In this document: positions 22,327 through 39,274 of the stretch, piece by piece | How the letters are laid out: each line of letters begins with the position of its first letter | Numbering within the stretch: the stretch's first letter is position 1 | Source of the DNA: Flavivirga spongiicola | GTDB lineage: Bacteria > Bacteroidota > Bacteroidia > Flavobacteriales > Flavobacteriaceae | Reading direction: 5' to 3' | DNA length: 64,000 nt | Assembly: GCF_030540825.1 (NCBI RefSeq) | Contig: NZ_JAUOEO010000001.1 | Coordinates: forward strand, 4,911,001-4,975,000 | The notes under the pieces: generated by a model | What the model saw: the letters and a program-made list of their open reading frames with translations, nothing else | Told to the model about the DNA's origin: nothing | Databases searched by the model: none | Program-made: the position numbers and the translations under genes

Positions 22327-23847
22327 ATGAAAAATTTATTTAAACTTTTTTTACTACTAGTAGTTACAATTACTACCGGTTTAACAGTAACAAGCTGTGA
22401 TATTGAGGATGGAAAAGATGGAAAAGACGGTCTGGATGGTGTAGATGGTAGTGATGGAACAGATGGCGCAAATGGTAGCGATGCCTCTGTTTATCTAGCA
22501 GCATCAAAATCTCCAAGCCTATTAAAAGTAACAAGCGATTTTGTAGGTTTAAAAATCACACCTATTTTATCTTCCGAAGATGTCATTCCAAACACTCCTG
22601 ACTTTGTATATGGTTCTATGGCCGACGGAGCTGGGTTAATTAACAATGGAAATGAAACGTTTACCTTAATTAACAATATAGAAGCGGATTATTCTATTGC
22701 CCGTATTTTATTAAACAAAAATCTAAGACCATATCATGGTGAATATATTCTAAATGCTGCTGCTACTGCTGAAACAGCTCAATGTTCTGGATCTTTGATT
22801 AGCCCTGAAGAACATGGGTTTGGTCCCTTATACCTATCTGGAGGAGAATGGGGAGGTGCTTCTAAAGGTGTGTTTTTAACAGACCCGGCAAAAGATGCTG
22901 CCGATGCTAGTACTGGAAAATTATTAACTGCTTTTGGACAGTGGTCTACCGAAAATGCTGTTGTTATTGGTAAAGATGCTTATGAAGATAAAACTGTTGC
23001 CTTTATTGGAGATGATCATTCTGATAACAGCGTACCTTCTGGTCAATTAGGCATGTATGTTGGAAACAGAGGAGATTTAGAAGGCGGTAAATTATATGGT
23101 TTAAAAGTAACTTCTGCTGGTATTGATTTTGAAGTAGATATGGTTGAGGGTACAGAGTATGATGCTGAATTTGTTGAATTAACCGAAAGAGAAATTGCAG
23201 CTCTAGATGCAGAAGCTAAATCTAAAGGTGTGATGGGATTCTCTAGATTAGAGGATATCGATTGGAGAAGAGGTTCTGCTGCAAACCAAAAAGAAGTTTA
23301 TTTAGCTGTTACTGGTAGAGATAAAGCAGATTTAGTTGGAAAAGGAACTATTTTAGGTAGGGTTTACAAAGTTGTATTAAATGATACAGACCCCACTGGG
23401 GCTTGTAAAATTACTTGTGTCCTAGATGGTGATAAAGTTGGTGGTAAAGCTGAAGGCTTCCACTCACCTGATAATATTTTAGTCACTGAGAACTATGCAT
23501 ATATACAAGAAGATCCAAACGGGTATTTAGATACTACTGCTAACGGTTTTGCCAAATTATATCAATATAACTTAAGCACAGGCGCTATAAAAACTGTTTT
23601 AGAGTGTGACCAGAATAGAGCTGCCGGTTTAGGCTATGGTACCATTGATAGAAACTGGGAAATTACTGGTATGATAGATGTTACTGATGTCGTTAATAAT
23701 GGAGATAACACATTCTTATTAATAACTCAAAATCATGGGTGGGAGCCTGCAGACGGAACTTCGTTTACAGATCCAAAAGCTAATCCAGACTTAGCAAACA
23801 GAAAAGAAGGCTCTATGCTTTACATAATCAAAGGTTTAGAAAGATAA
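22327..23847 (+). CDS. PhoX-like (DUF839) lipoprotein with collagen-like linker
   Basis: A 506-residue lipoprotein with an SPII signal ending LTVTSC. It is followed at once by a collagen-like run of Gly-x-Asp triplets (GKDGKDGLDGVDGSDGTDG) that probably acts as a stalk. The remaining ~430 residues match the PhoX/DUF839 beta-propeller pattern: MGFSRLEDIDWRR, EVYLAVTGRDK, GRVYKVVLND, FHSPDNILV and MLYIIKG. True PhoX is a Ca/Fe-dependent phosphatase usually exported by Tat. Here the export is Sec/SPII, and I cannot confirm the metal ligands. A di-heme peroxidase-like lipoprotein gene follows after 4 bases. Confidence 0.75.
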   Translation: MKNLFKLFLLLVVTITTGLTVTSCDIEDGKDGKDGLDGVDGSDGTDGANGSDASVYLAASKSPSLLKVTSDFVGLKITPILSSEDVIPNTPDFVYGSMADGAGLINNGNETFTLINNIEADYSIARILLNKNLRPYHGEYILNAAATAETAQCSGSLISPEEHGFGPLYLSGGEWGGASKGVFLTDPAKDAADASTGKLLTAFGQWSTENAVVIGKDAYEDKTVAFIGDDHSDNSVPSGQLGMYVGNRGDLEGGKLYGLKVTSAGIDFEVDMVEGTEYDAEFVELTEREIAALDAEAKSKGVMGFSRLEDIDWRRGSAANQKEVYLAVTGRDKADLVGKGTILGRVYKVVLNDTDPTGACKITCVLDGDKVGGKAEGFHSPDNILVTENYAYIQEDPNGYLDTTANGFAKLYQYNLSTGAIKTVLECDQNRAAGLGYGTIDRNWEITGMIDVTDVVNNGDNTFLLITQNHGWEPADGTSFTDPKANPDLANRKEGSMLYIIKGLER

Positions 23848-23851
23848 TCTT

Positions 23852-25657
23852 ATGAACATATATTTGAATTTTATATTCAAAGCTAAGACATACACTATGA
23901 GTGTATGTCTTTTGCTTTTAAGCGTTTCTTGTATTGATAAAGAAAAAAACAATACAGAAGAACAGATTACAAAAACAGATAAATTAGAAAAGCTATATAG
24001 TAACCATCTTGTTATGGCTTATAAACATTTGGATAGCATTGATATTACAAACAATAATGACACCAACAAGAAACACTATATAAACTCAAGAACATGCTTT
24101 AAAAAGAGCGAACCTATACTAGCGTACATAGAAAAAGAAAATTACAAGTCTTTAAACGCTCCAAACTTACTGCGAATCCAAGAAGAAGATCCTACAGATA
24201 TTAAAATAAACCAACCCATAGGATATCAAGTCATAGAAGAAAATTTATTTTCTGAATCCATGGATACTTTAGTTTTATCCAGGGCTCTAAAAGTAACAAG
24301 TGGGAGGTTAAAATTAATAGAACATAATATTGATCTAAATTTTAAAGACTATCATATATTATGGCTTATTAGAGATGCTATAGTTAGAATGGCTACAACG
24401 GGTTTATCTAATTTCGATTCTCCAGTGTTAGAAGCTTCATTAAGCGAATCAGGTTACGTTTTAGGTACGTTAAATGACATCTTTAACATTTATCAAAGCA
24501 ATTTTAAAAATAAAGATCTCTTTCAAAAATGGAAAACGGAGCTAATAAATTCCCAGAAAATACTAAATACAGATTTTGATAGCTTAGATAGATATGGGTT
24601 TATTAAAAATCATACCAATAAACAATTAGAACTTTTAAAAGCCACTCAAAAAGATTGGAATATAGAATTTCCTTTCGAGTTAGCTTTAAAAAACAATTTA
24701 ACCAGTTTATTCAGTAAAAACACTTTTAACTTAGAATACTTCTCAGATTATAAAAGTGATACCATATATTTAAACACAAAAATAGAGCTAGGGAAACAAC
24801 TATTTAATGACAAAAGGTTTTCTGTAAAAAATGATATGTCTTGTGCTACTTGCCATATTAAGGAAAAAGCCTTTACAGATGGAAAAGTAACTTTTAATAA
24901 AAATTTAAAAAGAAACTCACCTACCCTTACATATTCAGGTTTACAGAAAGCCTTTTTTTTAGATAATAGATCAGGTAGTTTAGAAGGACAAATAGCAGGA
25001 GTTGTTACTAACCATGATGAATTTAATGCTGACCTAAAACATATCGTCAAGGTCGTAAAAAGTGATAAAAACTACGCAAAGGCATTCGATACGCTATATT
25101 CAAGAGGAGCAAACGATATGAACATCAGACATTCTATTGCTTCATATGTTAGATCGCTAAATGAATTTAATTCAAAATTTGATAATAACATTAATGGAAA
25201 AGAAAATACGCTTACACATGCAGAAAAAAGGGGGTTTAACATATTTATAGGCAAAGCTGCATGCGCTACCTGTCATTTTCCTCCATTATTCAATGGTACA
25301 GTACCTCCAAACTTTAATGAGTCAGAGCTTGAAATTATTGGCGTTCCGGAAACAGAAGAAAACAAAAAGCTAGATGATGATCTAGGCCGTTATAACCTTT
25401 TTAAAACGGAAGAACGAAAAGGCGCTTTTAAAACGCCTTCTATTCGGAATGTGGAACTGACTGCTCCATATATGCATAACGGTGTTTATGAAAGTTTAGA
25501 ACAAGTCATGGATTTTTATAACAAAGGTGGTGGCTCCGGATTAGGTTTCGATGTACCTCATCAAACATTACCATTTGACAATTTAGATCTTTCTGAAGAA
25601 GACATACAAGATATCATTGCTTTTATGAAAACACTCACCGATTACAGTATAAATTAA
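23852..25657 (+). CDS. Lipoprotein di-heme cytochrome c peroxidase (MauG/CcpA family)
   Basis: A 601-residue protein with lipobox LLLSVSC. It has an N-terminal helical domain of about 270 residues without known motifs, then the bacterial di-heme peroxidase module. CATCH at 331 and CATCH at 471 are the two c-type heme sites. KAFTDG, RNSPTL, FLDNRSGSLEGQ, KTPSIRNVELTAPYMHNG and the final IIAFMKTLTD are family signatures. These enzymes reduce H2O2 or, in MauG types, oxidise a protein or organic substrate in the periplasm. It is co-transcribed with the PhoX-like lipoprotein. The long extra N-terminal domain may dock a partner. Confidence 0.9.
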   Translation: MNIYLNFIFKAKTYTMSVCLLLLSVSCIDKEKNNTEEQITKTDKLEKLYSNHLVMAYKHLDSIDITNNNDTNKKHYINSRTCFKKSEPILAYIEKENYKSLNAPNLLRIQEEDPTDIKINQPIGYQVIEENLFSESMDTLVLSRALKVTSGRLKLIEHNIDLNFKDYHILWLIRDAIVRMATTGLSNFDSPVLEASLSESGYVLGTLNDIFNIYQSNFKNKDLFQKWKTELINSQKILNTDFDSLDRYGFIKNHTNKQLELLKATQKDWNIEFPFELALKNNLTSLFSKNTFNLEYFSDYKSDTIYLNTKIELGKQLFNDKRFSVKNDMSCATCHIKEKAFTDGKVTFNKNLKRNSPTLTYSGLQKAFFLDNRSGSLEGQIAGVVTNHDEFNADLKHIVKVVKSDKNYAKAFDTLYSRGANDMNIRHSIASYVRSLNEFNSKFDNNINGKENTLTHAEKRGFNIFIGKAACATCHFPPLFNGTVPPNFNESELEIIGVPETEENKKLDDDLGRYNLFKTEERKGAFKTPSIRNVELTAPYMHNGVYESLEQVMDFYNKGGGSGLGFDVPHQTLPFDNLDLSEEDIQDIIAFMKTLTDYSIN

Positions 25658-25923: not shown

Positions 25924-26445
25924 TTATGATTTACTTATTTTTTTCTCATAAGCACCTCTTAAACTAACAGTAACATATCCATATATCAATCCAAGAACAC
26001 AATAAATTAGTTCCGTTTTTGCAGCAATTACAAAGCTTGCATTAGGGACATAAGACATGAATGCAAAAAATGCTCCAGCTCCAACAAAAATGGCTGGTAT
26101 AAAATCTAACCATTTAACTTTTTCAAGAAAAATAACAGGTATTACCACTAAAAAAACGGCAAGAGGGAAAGCAAAAAATCCTAATCCAGCAAACTGACCA
26201 CTTCCTAAGACCATAATTAAAATAGAAGCAATAATTCCCATCACATAGCCTAAAAGGGTTCGAACCCCTCCCTTAATATCACATCCTGCTAGAAAATACA
26301 TGGCCCATGCCTGAAAAGCTATCCAGCCAAAACCTACATTTCCTACCGGCTCTACATGAAGGTGAAGAAGTTGATCTACAATTTGAATTGATCCAGCCAA
26401 TAAAGCAATTAAAATTGGAATTGCAATAAATTTACGTAAACTCAT
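25924..26445 (-). CDS. DUF1097 integral membrane protein
   Basis: A 173-residue protein with about five membrane helices, including FIAIPILIALLAGSIQIVDQ, VGFGWIAFQAWAMYFLAG, LLGYVMGIIASILIMVLGSG, FFAFPLAVFLVVIPVIFL and ELIYCVLGLIYGYVTV. The GWIAFQAWAMYFLAGCDIKG motif is typical of DUF1097 (relatives include E. coli YcdZ), a family without a proven role. It lies downstream of the IclR-headed cluster, separated from its last gene by a MITE and a hairpin, so it may once have been the cluster's last gene. A transport role is possible but unproven. Confidence 0.8.
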   Translation of the reverse strand: MSLRKFIAIPILIALLAGSIQIVDQLLHLHVEPVGNVGFGWIAFQAWAMYFLAGCDIKGGVRTLLGYVMGIIASILIMVLGSGQFAGLGFFAFPLAVFLVVIPVIFLEKVKWLDFIPAIFVGAGAFFAFMSYVPNASFVIAAKTELIYCVLGLIYGYVTVSLRGAYEKKISKS

Positions 26446-31723: not shown

Positions 31724-32611
31724 TTATATGCTAGTAACTTCATGTGATTTTAAATCATTAAACATTTCAAATGCATCTTTAGGGATCAAATTCTCATGAA
31801 CCACAGCGCTAACAGCCTGAATCATAGCCCCAGGGTTTTCTGACTGAAAAACATTACGTCCCATATCAACCCCGGCAGCTCCCTCATTAATTGCCATATA
31901 ACTAAGTTTTAACGCATCTAACTCTGGCAGTTTTTTTCCTCCAGCAACTACAATAGGTACTGGACAAGATGAGGTCACCTTTGAAAAGCCTTCAGTATAA
32001 TACGTTTTAACAATGTTCGCTCCATTCTCGGCACACATACGTGATGCCAGACTAAAATAACGGGCATCTCTAACCATATCTTTACCAACAGCCGTTACCC
32101 CCATTACAGGAATACCCGCTTTTTGACCAGCATCAACAGCTTTACATATATTAGCCATCGTAATAGCCTCGGTGGATGTATCTCCTACTGAAGCCATAAC
32201 AGCTATGGCCGAAGCATTCATACGAACAGCATCTTGAATATCAATTAATACGTTGTGATTCAACTCAGTCAATATGGATGTTCCAGCATCAGATCGTAAA
32301 CAGATTGGTTTATTCGAATTAGCAGGAATATTTGAACGGATCATACCGCGAGCCCCCATTAAACAATCTGCATATTTAATTAATGGTGTAATAGTTAAAT
32401 CAATTCGTTCTAGACCAGAAGTAGGTCCCATAATAAAACCATGATCGAAAGCCAACATGACTGTTCGTCCTGTAGATGGCCGGAAAATACGGGAAAGACG
32501 ATCTTTCATTCCCCAGTCCATGTTATCACTCCCTTTTAAATAAAAAGCTTGGTTACTAACAGGTTCATTTGAAAAATTATTCCCTTCTCTTAAATCATCT
32601 AAATCAGCCAT
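31724..32611 (-). CDS. LsrF-like DeoC/FbaB-family aldolase/thiolase
   Basis: A 295-residue TIM-barrel protein that resembles E. coli LsrF almost end to end: MADLDDL start, DWGMKDRLSRIF, TVMLAFDHGF, GPTSGLERID, VGKDMVRDARYFSLA, KTYY with the Schiff-base-type Lys at 202, PVPIVVAGGKKLPE and GVDMGRNVFQSE. LsrF transfers an acetyl group of phospho-3-hydroxypentane-2,4-dione to CoA, giving DHAP and acetyl-CoA in AI-2 breakdown. Here no lsr transporter, LsrK or LsrG is present; DhaL and DhaK stand directly upstream instead. It may act on a related phosphorylated diketone or as a class I ketose-phosphate aldolase. Confidence 0.88.
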   Translation of the reverse strand: MADLDDLREGNNFSNEPVSNQAFYLKGSDNMDWGMKDRLSRIFRPSTGRTVMLAFDHGFIMGPTSGLERIDLTITPLIKYADCLMGARGMIRSNIPANSNKPICLRSDAGTSILTELNHNVLIDIQDAVRMNASAIAVMASVGDTSTEAITMANICKAVDAGQKAGIPVMGVTAVGKDMVRDARYFSLASRMCAENGANIVKTYYTEGFSKVTSSCPVPIVVAGGKKLPELDALKLSYMAINEGAAGVDMGRNVFQSENPGAMIQAVSAVVHENLIPKDAFEMFNDLKSHEVTSI

Positions 32612-32653
32612 AATATTTTTTTAAATTATATAATACTCTTTAATTATTTACAT

Positions 32654-33277
32654 TTATACGTATTGTTCAATTGCCTTGGAAAATGACTCAAACATGCAAG
32701 CCCAAGAAGTAGCTCCTGGATCTGCTGTTCCAATTGATCGTTCTCCTAAATGACGTGCTCTGCCAAAATTTGCCTTCATAGCAATGGTTTTTTCTGCTCC
32801 AACCAAAGCTGCCTTTGCTCCTTTATTTAAGATTTCAACTATATCGCCTTCAGCACTCTCAATAGCCTCGACTGCTGGAACTAAAGCGTCCATCATAGTT
32901 TTATCTCCTATCTTTGCCTTTGTTTGTGTTTGAAGCATGTTTAAACCAGATCTAAACATGTTCTTTACTTCCTTGACATCTAATGCATCACCTTTTGAAG
33001 CATCTGCCATTCCCATAAAAAAAGCGCCCATAAGTGTACTTGTAGAACCACATGATTCTTCCATAGTGCCAAAGGCCATGTTACCTAACATTTCGTTAAA
33101 TTCGACACCACTTTCACCTGCTTTCATTACAGCATTAAGAGCAGCAACAATGGCTGTTCCATGATCTCCATCTCCAGCTACAGCATCTAAGTTTGAGAGT
33201 TCTTCGGCACGTTCGGTAATATTTGTTAACGCAAACCTCATCATACTTTTAAAAGCATCTATAGTCAACTTCTCCAT
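32654..33277 (-). CDS. DhaL-like kinase ATP-binding subunit
   Basis: A 207-residue DhaL-family protein. DAVAGDGDHGTA (31-42) holds the Asp residues that bind Mg-ATP. CGSTSTLMGAFFMGMA and GRARHLGERSIGTADPGA are the other family motifs, including the arginine-containing phosphate contacts. In dihydroxyacetone kinases this subunit supplies the phosphoryl group to a substrate bound covalently in DhaK. It begins 3 bases after the dhaK-like stop. No PTS component DhaM is nearby, so an ATP-dependent kinase is more likely than the PTS type. Confidence 0.88.
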   Translation of the reverse strand: MEKLTIDAFKSMMRFALTNITERAEELSNLDAVAGDGDHGTAIVAALNAVMKAGESGVEFNEMLGNMAFGTMEESCGSTSTLMGAFFMGMADASKGDALDVKEVKNMFRSGLNMLQTQTKAKIGDKTMMDALVPAVEAIESAEGDIVEILNKGAKAALVGAEKTIAMKANFGRARHLGERSIGTADPGATSWACMFESFSKAIEQYV

Positions 33278-33280
33278 AAC

Positions 33281-34318
33281 TTAATTTTTGCCTATTACTG
33301 TCCAATATGGAGCATCAGAAGTGCAATCTTTCAAGTAAATAGCATGATCATCATCACATTTACCTAAAATCATCTGAAAACCAGATTGCTCTTGTACAGT
33401 TAATATTTCTGTTATTTTACCTTCCACTAATTGACATCCTGCTGCTTCAAGGATTTGACAAGATTTTCGGAAAATAATATTCATTTCCATATGTGTGGTA
33501 GCTCCAACACCATTGATATAAAGAAGCATTCTGTCATCTGTCTTTGCCTCTAACTTTTCCATAAGTTGGGTTATCATATATGTGGCTGTTTCATCTGCAC
33601 TAAGAAGTTCCATACGACCGCCACCGCCTTCACCATGCTGTCCCATACCAATTTCCATAACACCTTCTGGAAGCTCAGCTATAATGCCACCATTTTGTGG
33701 ATGTGTACATGACTTCATTGCCACAGCAAGCGTTGCAACCTGATTATTGAAACGCTCGCCTATTTCACATAACTCATCTAGCGATTTACCTTCCTCTGCT
33801 GCTGCACCTAAAATTTTATATAAAGGCACGCAACCTGCTAATCCACGACGATCCTCATCAGGTGTAGAATTACCTGCACTTATATCATCATGAGTAAGAA
33901 TGCTTTTTACATTGATGTTATGGCGTTCAGCCATTTGCATAGCCATATTAGCACTCATAACATCACCAGCATGATTTAAAACAATTAGGAGTACACCAGC
34001 TTCACGATTAAATTCTTTAAGCGCTTGAAGGAGACGAGGTGCACCAGGAGCAGCGAAAATATCACCAACTACTGAGCAATCAAGCATGCCCTCTCCCACG
34101 AAACCACTTAGAGCAGGCTCATGACCAGCACCACCTAAAGTAACAATGGCAACCTTATCTTGAGGCTTTGGATGGGTACGAACAACCGTATACTCATCTA
34201 AAAGTGTCACTTTATCCCTATATGCCATCGTATATCCCTCTAATAACTCTTTAGTAATATTATTAGGGTCATTAATAAATTTTTTGATTTGAGAAGTGTT
34301 TGCTATTTCAGACATCAT
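33281..34318 (-). CDS. DhaK-like kinase substrate-binding subunit
   Basis: A 345-residue DhaK-family protein. TLGGAGHEPALSGFVGEGML (60-79) and GMGQHGEGG (225-233) match the substrate site; His 228 aligns with the His that forms a hemiaminal with dihydroxyacetone. The usual NYTGD motif reads NHAGD here, and THDDISAGNSTPDEDRRGLA also differs from classical DhaK. The substrate may therefore be another small ketone, such as erythrulose or a dihydroxy-pentanedione. Two adjacent ATGs open the frame. It is coupled to the DhaL-like gene and followed by the LsrF-like gene. Confidence 0.87.
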   Translation of the reverse strand: MMSEIANTSQIKKFINDPNNITKELLEGYTMAYRDKVTLLDEYTVVRTHPKPQDKVAIVTLGGAGHEPALSGFVGEGMLDCSVVGDIFAAPGAPRLLQALKEFNREAGVLLIVLNHAGDVMSANMAMQMAERHNINVKSILTHDDISAGNSTPDEDRRGLAGCVPLYKILGAAAEEGKSLDELCEIGERFNNQVATLAVAMKSCTHPQNGGIIAELPEGVMEIGMGQHGEGGGGRMELLSADETATYMITQLMEKLEAKTDDRMLLYINGVGATTHMEMNIIFRKSCQILEAAGCQLVEGKITEILTVQEQSGFQMILGKCDDDHAIYLKDCTSDAPYWTVIGKN

Positions 34319-34347: not shown

Positions 34348-34665
34348 TTATTTGTCAAATTGCATAAGCTCGATAGGAGCGCCTTCTTCTTCTACAAAAG
34401 CAATGGTTAAACCATCTTTTGGAGAGAAAGGCTCAATTAAAATTGTTTTGCCTTCCATTTCGACTTGCAAATCTTCAACCTGATAAGCAATATGTGCTGT
34501 CGTCTGAATCAATTCTGGAAATTCAGAACCTGATTCAAATCGTAACCACTCAATTTTGTTTGCGCTATTGGTATAGTCTGTAATAAATAATTTGGCGCCC
34601 TCCATATAATTTTCTTCAGGCTGAACGACTTTCGTTGGAATCCCAATGTGATCTAATTTTCTCAT
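34348..34665 (-). CDS. VOC superfamily (glyoxalase-like) protein
   Basis: A 105-residue single-module vicinal-oxygen-chelate protein: RKLDHIGIPTK opens the first beta-alpha-beta-beta-beta unit, and TTAHIAYQVEDLQ and GLTIAFVEEEGAPIELMQF close the second. The His in LDHIGI, the His in TTAHIAY and the Glu in PIELMQ could bind a metal. VOC enzymes isomerise or cleave compounds with adjacent oxygens (hemithioacetals, epimerisable acyl-CoAs). In this cluster it might isomerise the diketone or ketose intermediate, which is inference only. It lies 29 bases before the dhaK-like gene. Confidence 0.82.
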   Translation of the reverse strand: MRKLDHIGIPTKVVQPEENYMEGAKLFITDYTNSANKIEWLRFESGSEFPELIQTTAHIAYQVEDLQVEMEGKTILIEPFSPKDGLTIAFVEEEGAPIELMQFDK

Positions 34666-34764: not shown

Positions 34765-35460
34765 TTACATATTACCCATAATATCAGTAAAGGATACATT
34801 TGGATTGGTAAAACGAAGCGCTGCACCATCATGATAATTCGCATACTCCGAGACCACAGCTCCTTGATCTCCAGCCAACATAAAGTGTGGGGCTTCCAAT
34901 CGACCTAAAGTCTGTAAGCCATTTAATTTTAGTTCATTCACATTAGACACAGTGATAAAACCTTTCTGACTTTCAGGCGTTTTAGGGTTATTGGCCGTAG
35001 TTTCACCTTCTCCAAAATTGTAAATGGAACCACCACGTACATGCCACGTTTCCATTTTGGTTATATCATCAGTTTTTACATGTTTGTGTTCTGCAATCAT
35101 CTGTCCAGGCAATAGAAAAATTTCATGAGCAAAATAGGTATACTCCTTACTATTATGCCAAAACACACCTGCCATACCAACATTAGCAAAATCACCTAAT
35201 CCAAAATCTGTGATAAACATATTTTTCTCCAAAAACGCATCAAAAGGAACATGATAAAATGCCATCAATTCCTTATAAGCATTTAAAGCCTTTTCTGGGT
35301 TTAATATCCCATCGTCATAGAAATACTCATTAGTATACTTCTTCATTTCTGTTTTTTTAAAATCTAATTTTTTTTCACCTGAACCAAAGGAACATGACGA
35401 ACTCGACACAAGTCCTAAGGAGCCGATTGCTGTAGCTTTTAATGCGTCTCTTCTTTTCAT
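34765..35460 (-). CDS. Tat-type lipoprotein with D-lyxose-isomerase-like cupin domain
   Basis: A 231-residue protein. MKRRDALKATAIGSLGLVSS looks like a twin-arginine signal and is followed by a Cys (SSSC, residue 23) that would be lipidated. The mature part has cupin features: PGQMIAEHKH (His 125 and 127), METWHVRGGSIYNFGEGE and a late AGDQGAVVSEY. The arrangement resembles YdaE-type D-lyxose ketol-isomerases, which hold a metal with His, His, Glu and His. If that is right, it acts outside the cytoplasm, unusual for an isomerase. Annotation by resemblance only. Confidence 0.6.
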   Translation of the reverse strand: MKRRDALKATAIGSLGLVSSSSCSFGSGEKKLDFKKTEMKKYTNEYFYDDGILNPEKALNAYKELMAFYHVPFDAFLEKNMFITDFGLGDFANVGMAGVFWHNSKEYTYFAHEIFLLPGQMIAEHKHVKTDDITKMETWHVRGGSIYNFGEGETTANNPKTPESQKGFITVSNVNELKLNGLQTLGRLEAPHFMLAGDQGAVVSEYANYHDGAALRFTNPNVSFTDIMGNM

Positions 35461-38476: not shown

Positions 38477-39274
38477 TTATTGGTTATAGCCTAACTGACG
38501 TGAAATACCGAGACACATGTCCCGAATCATATCTCCTACTTCTTCAAATTTTTCTAAAGGCAAACGAGCAGAAGGTCCAGTGACCCATATTGCTGAAATA
38601 GGGCAACCATACTGATTAAATATAGGAGCCCCAACACAATGAACTCCTTCTAACTCCTCTGCATAATCTATACTGTAACCACAGGAACGAACTTTATTTA
38701 ATGCTTCTTTAAAATCATGAATATTAGTAATGGTACGGTCATTAAACTTTTCAAAAGACATACTCTCTATGATGGCTTCTCTTTCAGATTGGGGTAAAAA
38801 AGCAATAATAGATTTACCTGGTGCAGATGGATGCAAATGAAACCCCTGACCAGCATTCAACATAAATGTAAATGGATGCGAACCTAAAACCTGTTCTAAC
38901 AAAACACCTTTTTTTTCTACCAGAGCCCCAACCAAAATGGTTTCTTTTAATTCATCACGCAATAAACGCATGACTGGCAGACATTTTTCTAGTAGATTTG
39001 GCTCTGAAAGTGTTGATAACCCAATATGTAAAAACCGTTTAGACAAGGAAAAAAGTGAAGGCTGACCTGACTTTATAAGATACCCACGATTGACCAACGT
39101 TTGAGTAATTCGAAATATTGAACTTTTAGGAAAGCCTAAACGTTCCTGTAATTCGGTTAAACTAAAACCTTGTGGAGAATCTTGTAAAAGTTCGACGATA
39201 GATAATGCTCTATCTAGGTTCGGAACGGAATACGATTTCTCTACGTCTTCAATTAAATCTTTTCCTTGTTTCAT
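38477..39274 (-). CDS. IclR family transcriptional regulator
   Basis: A 265-residue protein with the IclR winged helix at the N-terminus (LDRALSIVELLQD, FSLTELQERLGFPKSSIFRI, VNRGYLI). The effector-binding domain follows: PCMR-like region KCLPVMRLLRDELKETILVG, HPSAPGKSIIAFLP, YSIDYAEELEGVHCVGAPIF and ISAIWVTGPSARL. IclR proteins sense small carbon-source metabolites and often control the operon they head. It is the first gene of the cluster and just downstream of a 24-base palindrome and a -7 box, which suggests autoregulation and control of the cluster. Confidence 0.93.
   Translation of the reverse strand: MKQGKDLIEDVEKSYSVPNLDRALSIVELLQDSPQGFSLTELQERLGFPKSSIFRITQTLVNRGYLIKSGQPSLFSLSKRFLHIGLSTLSEPNLLEKCLPVMRLLRDELKETILVGALVEKKGVLLEQVLGSHPFTFMLNAGQGFHLHPSAPGKSIIAFLPQSEREAIIESMSFEKFNDRTITNIHDFKEALNKVRSCGYSIDYAEELEGVHCVGAPIFNQYGCPISAIWVTGPSARLPLEKFEEVGDMIRDMCLGISRQLGYNQ

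Follow-up and report, generated by a model that had tools for sequence, protein, structure and literature searches.

The genes for a DhaK-type and a DhaL-type kinase subunit and for an LsrF-type thiolase/aldolase, encoded next to each other in a 64,000-nucleotide stretch of Flavivirga spongiicola DNA (contig NZ_JAUOEO010000001.1, positions 4,911,001 to 4,975,000; this whole stretch is called the window below), are the core of a larger gene cluster, rare and tightly linked, which also encodes a pair of heme proteins related to the anammox enzyme hydrazine synthase. Each protein of the cluster falls in a known superfamily; the constant association of the heme pair with LsrF and a DhaKL pair from a separate clade is described in none of the open PubMed Central (PMC) papers that the literature searches listed. 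Judged from sequence, the cluster is quite possibly a sugar-catabolic operon, and we propose this reading tentatively. The triad consists of the following genes:

33281..34318, minus strand: DhaK-type substrate-binding kinase subunit of a separate clade, 345 aa; PF02733 (Dak1) 318 bits
32654..33277, minus strand: DhaL-type nucleotide-binding kinase subunit, 207 aa; PF02734 (Dak2) 133 bits
31724..32611, minus strand: LsrF-type thiolase/aldolase, 295 aa; NCBIfam NF006081 432.9 bits, cut-off 297

The open reading frames (ORFs) of the window place DhaK and DhaL 3 bases apart and LsrF 42 bases further on, in agreement with the initial annotation of this DNA. A scan of species genomes with DhaK gave at least 555 stretches encoding relatives, of which the best 80, with 65-85% identity and from Bacteroidota, Planctomycetota, Verrucomicrobiota, and Kiritimatiellota, were analysed by ORF calling and phmmer; the counts describe the nearest relatives of this DhaK clade, not all DhaK genes. 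DhaL and LsrF were found downstream on the same strand in 78 of these 80 loci, and in the remaining two (L023, L064) the contig stops within 180 bases of DhaK, so the association of the triad is not a matter of chance. A search for LsrK in 13 genomes gave no orthologue, with no match above 30% identity.

The cluster exceeds the triad. Ten minus-strand genes, separated by gaps of 3 to 112 bases, run from 39274 to 26745 in the 5' to 3' order IclR, propeller with two c-heme motifs, chorismatase-like protein, cupin, VOC protein, DhaK, DhaL, LsrF, Mal s 1-like protein, and a 1330-aa protein. Outside the triad, the features are:

38477..39274, minus strand: IclR-family regulator, first gene of the cluster, 265 aa; PF01614 120 bits, PF09339 54 bits
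36697..38466, minus strand: secreted propeller and diheme cytochrome c, homologue of fused hydrazine synthase beta-gamma; hydrazine_BC 121 bits
35573..36682, minus strand: chorismatase (FkbO/Hyg5)-like protein; PF21168 52 bits; profile matches 5ag3 E 7e-39, 4bps E 4e-31
34765..35460, minus strand: cupin, relative of D-lyxose/D-mannose isomerase; profile matches 7nzo E 5e-21, 2y0o E 3e-18
34348..34665, minus strand: small VOC-fold protein, 105 aa
30767..31669, minus strand: Mal s 1-like propeller protein with a lipoprotein-like N-terminus (by eye); PF22701 175 bits
26745..30737, minus strand: 1330-aa protein with an NPCBM domain, a hydrazine-synthase-alpha-like propeller with two c-hemes, and an FGE-type C-terminal domain
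25924..26445, minus strand: DUF1097 membrane protein, possible transporter; PF06496 61.5 bits

The DUF1097 gene lies 299 bases beyond the tenth gene and its membership in the cluster is uncertain; related genes adjoin cluster genes in L012, L026, and L049, and in L086 one is annotated 5' of VOC. Near the 3' end of the cluster, the plus strand of the window (22327-25657) encodes a protein with a collagen-like Gly-Xaa-Xaa stretch close to its start and, 4 bases on, a MauG/cytochrome c peroxidase-like protein (by eye). The cupin has an N-terminus resembling a secreted lipoprotein signal (by eye), and its residues H125, H127, E137, and H192, invariant in 15/15 sequences, are the His-His-Glu-His set that we take to be the metal ligands of the D-lyxose isomerase family.

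The genes around the triad recur among the relatives as well. The 80 loci contain VOC in 72 cases, cupin in 62, alpha-like in 60, beta-gamma-like in 56, chorismatase-like in 51, Mal s 1-like in 43, a ResB/CcsA cytochrome c maturation protein in 40, and IclR in 16. When the count is limited to the 50 loci with long flanks (9.2 kb or more upstream, 7 kb or more downstream), DhaL and LsrF are present in all 50, VOC in 48, beta-gamma, cupin, and alpha in 44 each, the chorismatase-like gene in 39, Mal s 1-like in 32, the maturation protein in 31, and IclR in 9. The chorismatase-like gene is seldom found in the loci of Planctomycetota and Verrucomicrobiota. The cluster is also present on annotated plasmids of two Bacteroidota, Parabacteroides distasonis (L085) and Aureibacter tunicatorum (L086), which is a sign of mobility. 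Two loci of Opitutales (L033, L047) carry, upstream of DhaK-DhaL-LsrF and divergent from it, genes for a sodium:solute symporter and an FAD-dependent oxidoreductase (PF12831); the latter could substitute for a heme-dependent oxidation step.

The linkage holds at the level of whole genomes. In a sample of 149 genomes from the order of a Parabacteroides genome (G203, the centre of the sample), the DhaK clade occurs in 5, LsrF above 400 bits in the same 5, and beta-gamma in those 5 and in G805 (Fisher p 3e-7 for DhaK versus beta-gamma with the centre genome left out). One more LsrF match, in G841, is of a distant kind (209 bits). DhaK and LsrF of G882 lie on separate contigs, about 50 and less than 300 bases from the contig end, respectively, and the split is explained by a break of the assembly. 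Among 295 genomes of the class, DhaK, LsrF, and beta-gamma were each found in the same 2, one of them the window's genome; among 199 genomes of the family, a strong LsrF match occurs in 2 (again including the window's) and a weak partial one in 1. The genomes of 12 loci with no alpha-like gene in the examined stretch were searched, and all 12 have an alpha-like match elsewhere. Four Alistipes genomes have VOC-DhaK-DhaL-LsrF at one site and IclR, beta-gamma, and alpha at another, and in one Parabacteroides genome the second part reads IclR, beta-gamma, chorismatase-like, cupin, alpha, CcsBA. Such split heme genes are less telling in Planctomycetota and Verrucomicrobiota, where there are many alpha paralogues: the Pirellulaceae genome G204 (the genome of L020) has 46 matches to the hydrazine-synthase-alpha-like region, a large paralogous family, and the best alpha-like matches of G205 and G210 are 31% and 38% identical.

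The heme proteins, encoded on both sides of the triad, had been missed in the initial annotation. The beta-gamma protein matches the profiles of 5c2v_B (E 3e-34) and 5c2v_C (E 5e-29) and has two CxxCH motifs in 20/20 sequences, and the pair shares with hydrazine synthase the alpha plus beta-gamma architecture, each protein having two c-heme motifs. Family scores are far lower than those of the enzyme itself, 121 bits against the hydrazine_BC cut-off of 1250 for beta-gamma and 59 bits against the NCBIfam cut-off of 800 for the alpha-like protein. The position of Tyr591, four residues past the heme alpha-I His, is occupied by Asn in 19/20 sequences and by Arg in 1/20; by hand count along the profile alignment, gamma Cys165 falls in an insertion absent here and gamma His144 aligns with Ile (numbering of PMC12758564). 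A true hydrazine synthase was rejected on account of these three active-site positions. The cytochrome c maturation gene found in half of the loci (40/80), and inside the cluster in gut members, indicates that the heme proteins are part of the task of the cluster and not bystanders.

The kinase of the cluster differs from the six other DhaK proteins compared. Residue counts, made after removal of identical rows, gave a motif NHxGD in 84/84 sequences of the clade, the window's included (NHSGD 61, NHAGD 21, NHEGD 2), at the position of E. coli NYTGD; the six other DhaK proteins have NYTGD, NVVGD, NYSGD, or NFSGD, and NHxGD in 0/6. The window's DhaK has NHAGD, as pointed out in the initial annotation. 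The equivalents of E. coli DhaK H56, D109, and H218 are intact in 84/84, and those of DhaL D30, D35, and D37 in 84/84 different sequences; all six are catalytic residues. E. coli DhaK T79-S80 is replaced by Ala-Ala in 84/84 and in 3/6 references. The separation of the clade rests on 32-37% identity of the window's DhaK to five other DhaK proteins and on a tree of 31 rows against six references (support 100/99) in which several references stand on long branches and for which the program warned of long-branch joins. DhaK scores 287.9 bits against the cut-off of 406.25 for the equivalog TIGR02363, and DhaL is just under that of TIGR02365 (131.4 against 138.3). Two plasmids of Rhodobacterales, from Paracoccus seriniphilus (L184) and Parasedimentitalea marina (L186), carry DhaL-DhaK alongside two annotated genes, one for a tagatose 1,6-diphosphate aldolase and one for a sugar phosphate isomerase/epimerase.

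LsrF of the cluster is a close homologue of the E. coli protein, as had been claimed: it is 55.2% identical to it over 288 residues and well above the NF006081 cut-off. The equivalent of the catalytic lysine K203 was found in 111/111 different sequences, stand-alone relatives included. In a tree of 61 rows, a chosen subset, cluster LsrF, E. coli and Klebsiella LsrF, and five stand-alone proteins lie on one side of a branch with support 100/99, and 25 stand-alone proteins lie opposite. With the references used, both tree placements proposed in the initial annotation came out in its favour, DhaK outside the six other DhaK proteins and LsrF together with the Lsr enzymes. By score and tree, cluster LsrF belongs to the thiolase subfamily, for which cleavage dependent on coenzyme A (CoA) is predicted. 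E. coli LsrF is reported to take an acyl group off a phosphorylated diketone and hand it to CoA, with dihydroxyacetone phosphate (DHAP) set free (PMC8016206; PMC7828210). In the phylum of G204, 46/294 genomes have an LsrF match at 1e-50; the surroundings were viewed for 40 of these 46 (41 with L020, five being left out), and DhaK adjoins LsrF in 6/40 (L143-L148) and in L020, while L141, L142, and L149 are short stretches or stop close to LsrF, so that their lack of DhaK says little. Most of the remaining proteins form a separate LsrF-like group in the tree, 40-50% identical to the window's LsrF, with no DhaK nearby. In one member of this group (L167), the next gene encodes a zinc alcohol dehydrogenase.

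How might these proteins work together? DhaK-type kinases phosphorylate a CH2OH group adjacent to a ketone. The isomerase-type cupin and the carbohydrate-active neighbours of some relatives, GH20 (L037), GH36 (L024), and GH130 (L085), suggest sugar chemistry. It is proposed that the four-heme alpha/beta-gamma pair, with its NPCBM domain, would oxidise a glycan-derived sugar outside the cytoplasm and deliver electrons to the respiratory chain, that the secreted cupin would shift the carbonyl from C1 to C2, and that the resulting (di)ketose would be taken into the cell. DhaK would then hold it via a histidine, DhaL with ATP would phosphorylate the CH2OH beside the keto group, and LsrF would cleave the product, with DHAP freed. 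In the most speculative part of the scheme, the compound cleaved would be a 2,4-diketose 1-phosphate, R-CO-CHOH-CO-CH2OP, which the VOC protein, substituting for LsrG, would form from the 2,3-isomer, and LsrF would convert it to DHAP and acyl-CoA, as with phosphorylated autoinducer 2 (AI-2), where R = CH3. Such a compound is proposed because LsrF is of thiolase type and is regularly accompanied by an oxidoreductase-like partner; a sugar-derived diketone would need an oxidation, and this is the role proposed for the heme pair with its NPCBM domain. The complete oxidative-thiolytic pathway, with a hydrazine-synthase-like heme complex in the periplasm oxidising a sugar ring carbon, a secreted cupin giving the diketose, and Lsr-type chemistry of DhaKL, VOC, and LsrF leading to DHAP and acyl-CoA, is by itself rather unlikely. 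The more general idea of the initial annotation, a kinase-isomerase-cleavage route with unnamed substrate, is still a good reading. The VOC and cupin genes, whose products it named as candidates for the LsrG step, stand directly upstream of the triad, but the cupin, a secreted relative of D-lyxose/D-mannose isomerase by its sequence, is not simply an LsrG substitute.

Several observations weigh against the sugar-catabolic reading. The chorismatase-like and DAHP-synthase-like proteins (DAHP, 3-deoxy-D-arabino-heptulosonate 7-phosphate) have no place in the scheme. No transporter is constant, as DUF1097, a sodium:solute symporter, or an MFS protein vary by locus, and the neighbouring glycosidases vary too. 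Pfam and NCBIfam scans of the relatives' neighbour genes gave varied matches that indicate no single substrate, among them GH20, GH29 (beside unlinked alpha genes), GH36, GH130, RtcB, Memo/AMMECR1, and a P-type ATPase; frames with no match at all (both from L147, one from L101), probably spurious ORFs, were excluded. The VOC profile match is weak (E 0.0009) and the fold covers many reactions. The Ala-Ala change in the DhaK pocket, being shared by half of the references, says little on substrate size, and the protein, with no second DhaK match in the genome of the window, may have a side role with dihydroxyacetone. G805, a genome without DhaK or LsrF whose beta-gamma gene lies on a 4 kb contig, speaks against a strict link, and the abundance of alpha paralogues in Planctomycetota means that co-occurrence there proves little.

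A plain ketose 1-phosphate route, in which the cupin turns an aldose into a ketose (e.g., D-xylulose), DhaKL phosphorylates C1, LsrF acts as a retro-aldolase yielding DHAP and an aldehyde (e.g., glycolaldehyde), and the heme proteins act in some other or preceding step, is possible if somewhat doubtful. The cupin does belong to the lyxose/mannose isomerase family, the LsrF fold family is that of class I lysine-type aldolases (DeoC), and the plasmid modules of Rhodobacterales, DhaL-DhaK with a tagatose 1,6-diphosphate aldolase, are analogous. However, LsrF groups with the thiolase LsrF rather than with other aldolases, and the route offers no clear task for VOC or for the linked pair of heme proteins.

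It was also considered that the cluster is biosynthetic, the chorismatase-like and DAHP-synthase-like proteins making a hydroxybenzoate-type aromatic, LsrF running in the synthetic direction, and the product being a redox cofactor or shuttle for the heme pair. The DAHP-synthase-like gene (about 250 aa, below curated cut-offs) lies within the operon in 7/80 loci, L021 (17534-18289), L018, L024, L025, L035, L038, and L070; in L021 and L035 it separates the alpha-like gene from CcsBA. Combined with the chorismatase-like gene, whose homology is clear by profile, it hints at a link to chorismate, and LsrF and the DAHP-synthase-like protein match the bagremycin/ferroverdin aldolase and synthase models, far below cut-off. 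This explanation is nevertheless improbable: the chorismatase-like gene occurs in 51 of the 80 loci and seldom in those of Planctomycetota and Verrucomicrobiota, its product stays below the subfamily threshold of TIGR04444 (119.7 bits against 325), and the IclR regulators and the secreted sugar-isomerase-like cupin suit breakdown better.

Breakdown of AI-2, i.e., 4,5-dihydroxy-2,3-pentanedione, or of a close analogue, in which DhaKL would replace LsrK and the VOC protein LsrG, takes up one of the two proposals of the initial annotation. The identity of LsrF to its E. coli homologue and the possible phosphorylation of a hydroxyketone by DhaKL speak for it. When the eight E. coli lsr proteins were compared with the window, only LsrF had a match; LsrG, LsrR, and the LsrABCD transporter had none within the window, to which this search was confined. 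The window's genome contains no LsrK orthologue (best matches 24% and 23% identical) and no LuxS match, and LuxS occurs in 3/13 genomes of the group. These searches lower the standing of AI-2 breakdown, which is weakly supported and quite improbable, even if AI-2 scavenged from other bacteria is a possible source; it also leaves the heme pair, the secreted isomerase-like cupin, and cytochrome maturation unexplained. Finally, a plain dihydroxyacetone kinase for use of glycerol or dihydroxyacetone, with LsrF as a chance neighbour, would agree with the complete set of catalytic residues and with the sole DhaK match in the genome, yet it is very improbable and was rejected, given the separate clade with its NHxGD motif and low identity, the score of 288 bits against 406, the fixed LsrF context, and the surroundings of the triad in L085 and L086, where neither a glycerol gene nor DhaM is annotated. 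The outcome that the initial annotation had set against its own proposal, a glycerol-type DhaK beside an unrelated LsrF, was not found with the references used.

If the sugar-catabolic reading is true, the cluster would give a biochemical setting to two orphan groups, LsrF enzymes unaccompanied by LsrK and the hydrazine-synthase-like cytochromes of non-anammox bacteria, the latter occurring here in genomes of Parabacteroides, Bacteroides, and Alistipes. It would bear on the origins of hydrazine synthase and of the AI-2 breakdown route, and would imply cytochrome-c-dependent sugar oxidation in anaerobic gut bacteria. Should the oxidative-thiolytic form of this reading hold, the LsrF-dependent breakdown of AI-2 would represent one specialised offshoot of a larger family that degrades sugars, and hydrazine synthase would be related to complexes for sugar oxidation that gut bacteria have as well.

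Comparison with known systems shows what is shared and what is specific. Homologues of hydrazine synthase outside anammox bacteria are already in print, and the anammox enzyme and these homologues have in common with the cluster the alpha fold, a pair of c-heme motifs per protein, and location in one cluster, the homologues also the fusion of beta and gamma (PMC12758564). The alpha protein described here differs from hydrazine synthase by additional NPCBM and FGE domains, and the pair lacks equivalents of the axial Tyr at heme alpha-I and of Cys165 and His144 in gamma; linkage of the heme pair to DhaK, DhaL, LsrF, cupin, and VOC is not mentioned in sections 7 and 8 of PMC12758564. The cupin D-lyxose/D-mannose isomerases (YdaE, 2y0o; 7nzo) share sequence profile and metal ligands with the cluster cupin, for which isomerase activity is predicted, but the latter has a secreted-looking N-terminus and about 230 residues. 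With dihydroxyacetone kinases dependent on ATP or the phosphotransferase system (PTS), the two-subunit architecture and catalytic residues are common, whereas the cluster DhaK forms the NHxGD clade under the equivalog cut-off, with no DhaM annotated nearby in L085 and L086. The plasmid modules of Rhodobacterales similarly place DhaK and DhaL beside a gene for a DHAP-type class I aldolase, although the aldolase annotation and the DhaK clade are different, a sugar phosphate isomerase/epimerase is annotated, and the stretches shown have no annotated cytochrome. The E. coli Lsr system (LsrK, LsrG, LsrF) has LsrF of the same subfamily and the same logic of kinase, isomerase, and cleavage to DHAP. 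In the cluster, DhaKL would stand for the FGGY kinase LsrK and VOC for LsrG, the window has no gene for an Lsr transporter or LsrR, and secreted heme proteins and a secreted cupin are encoded instead.

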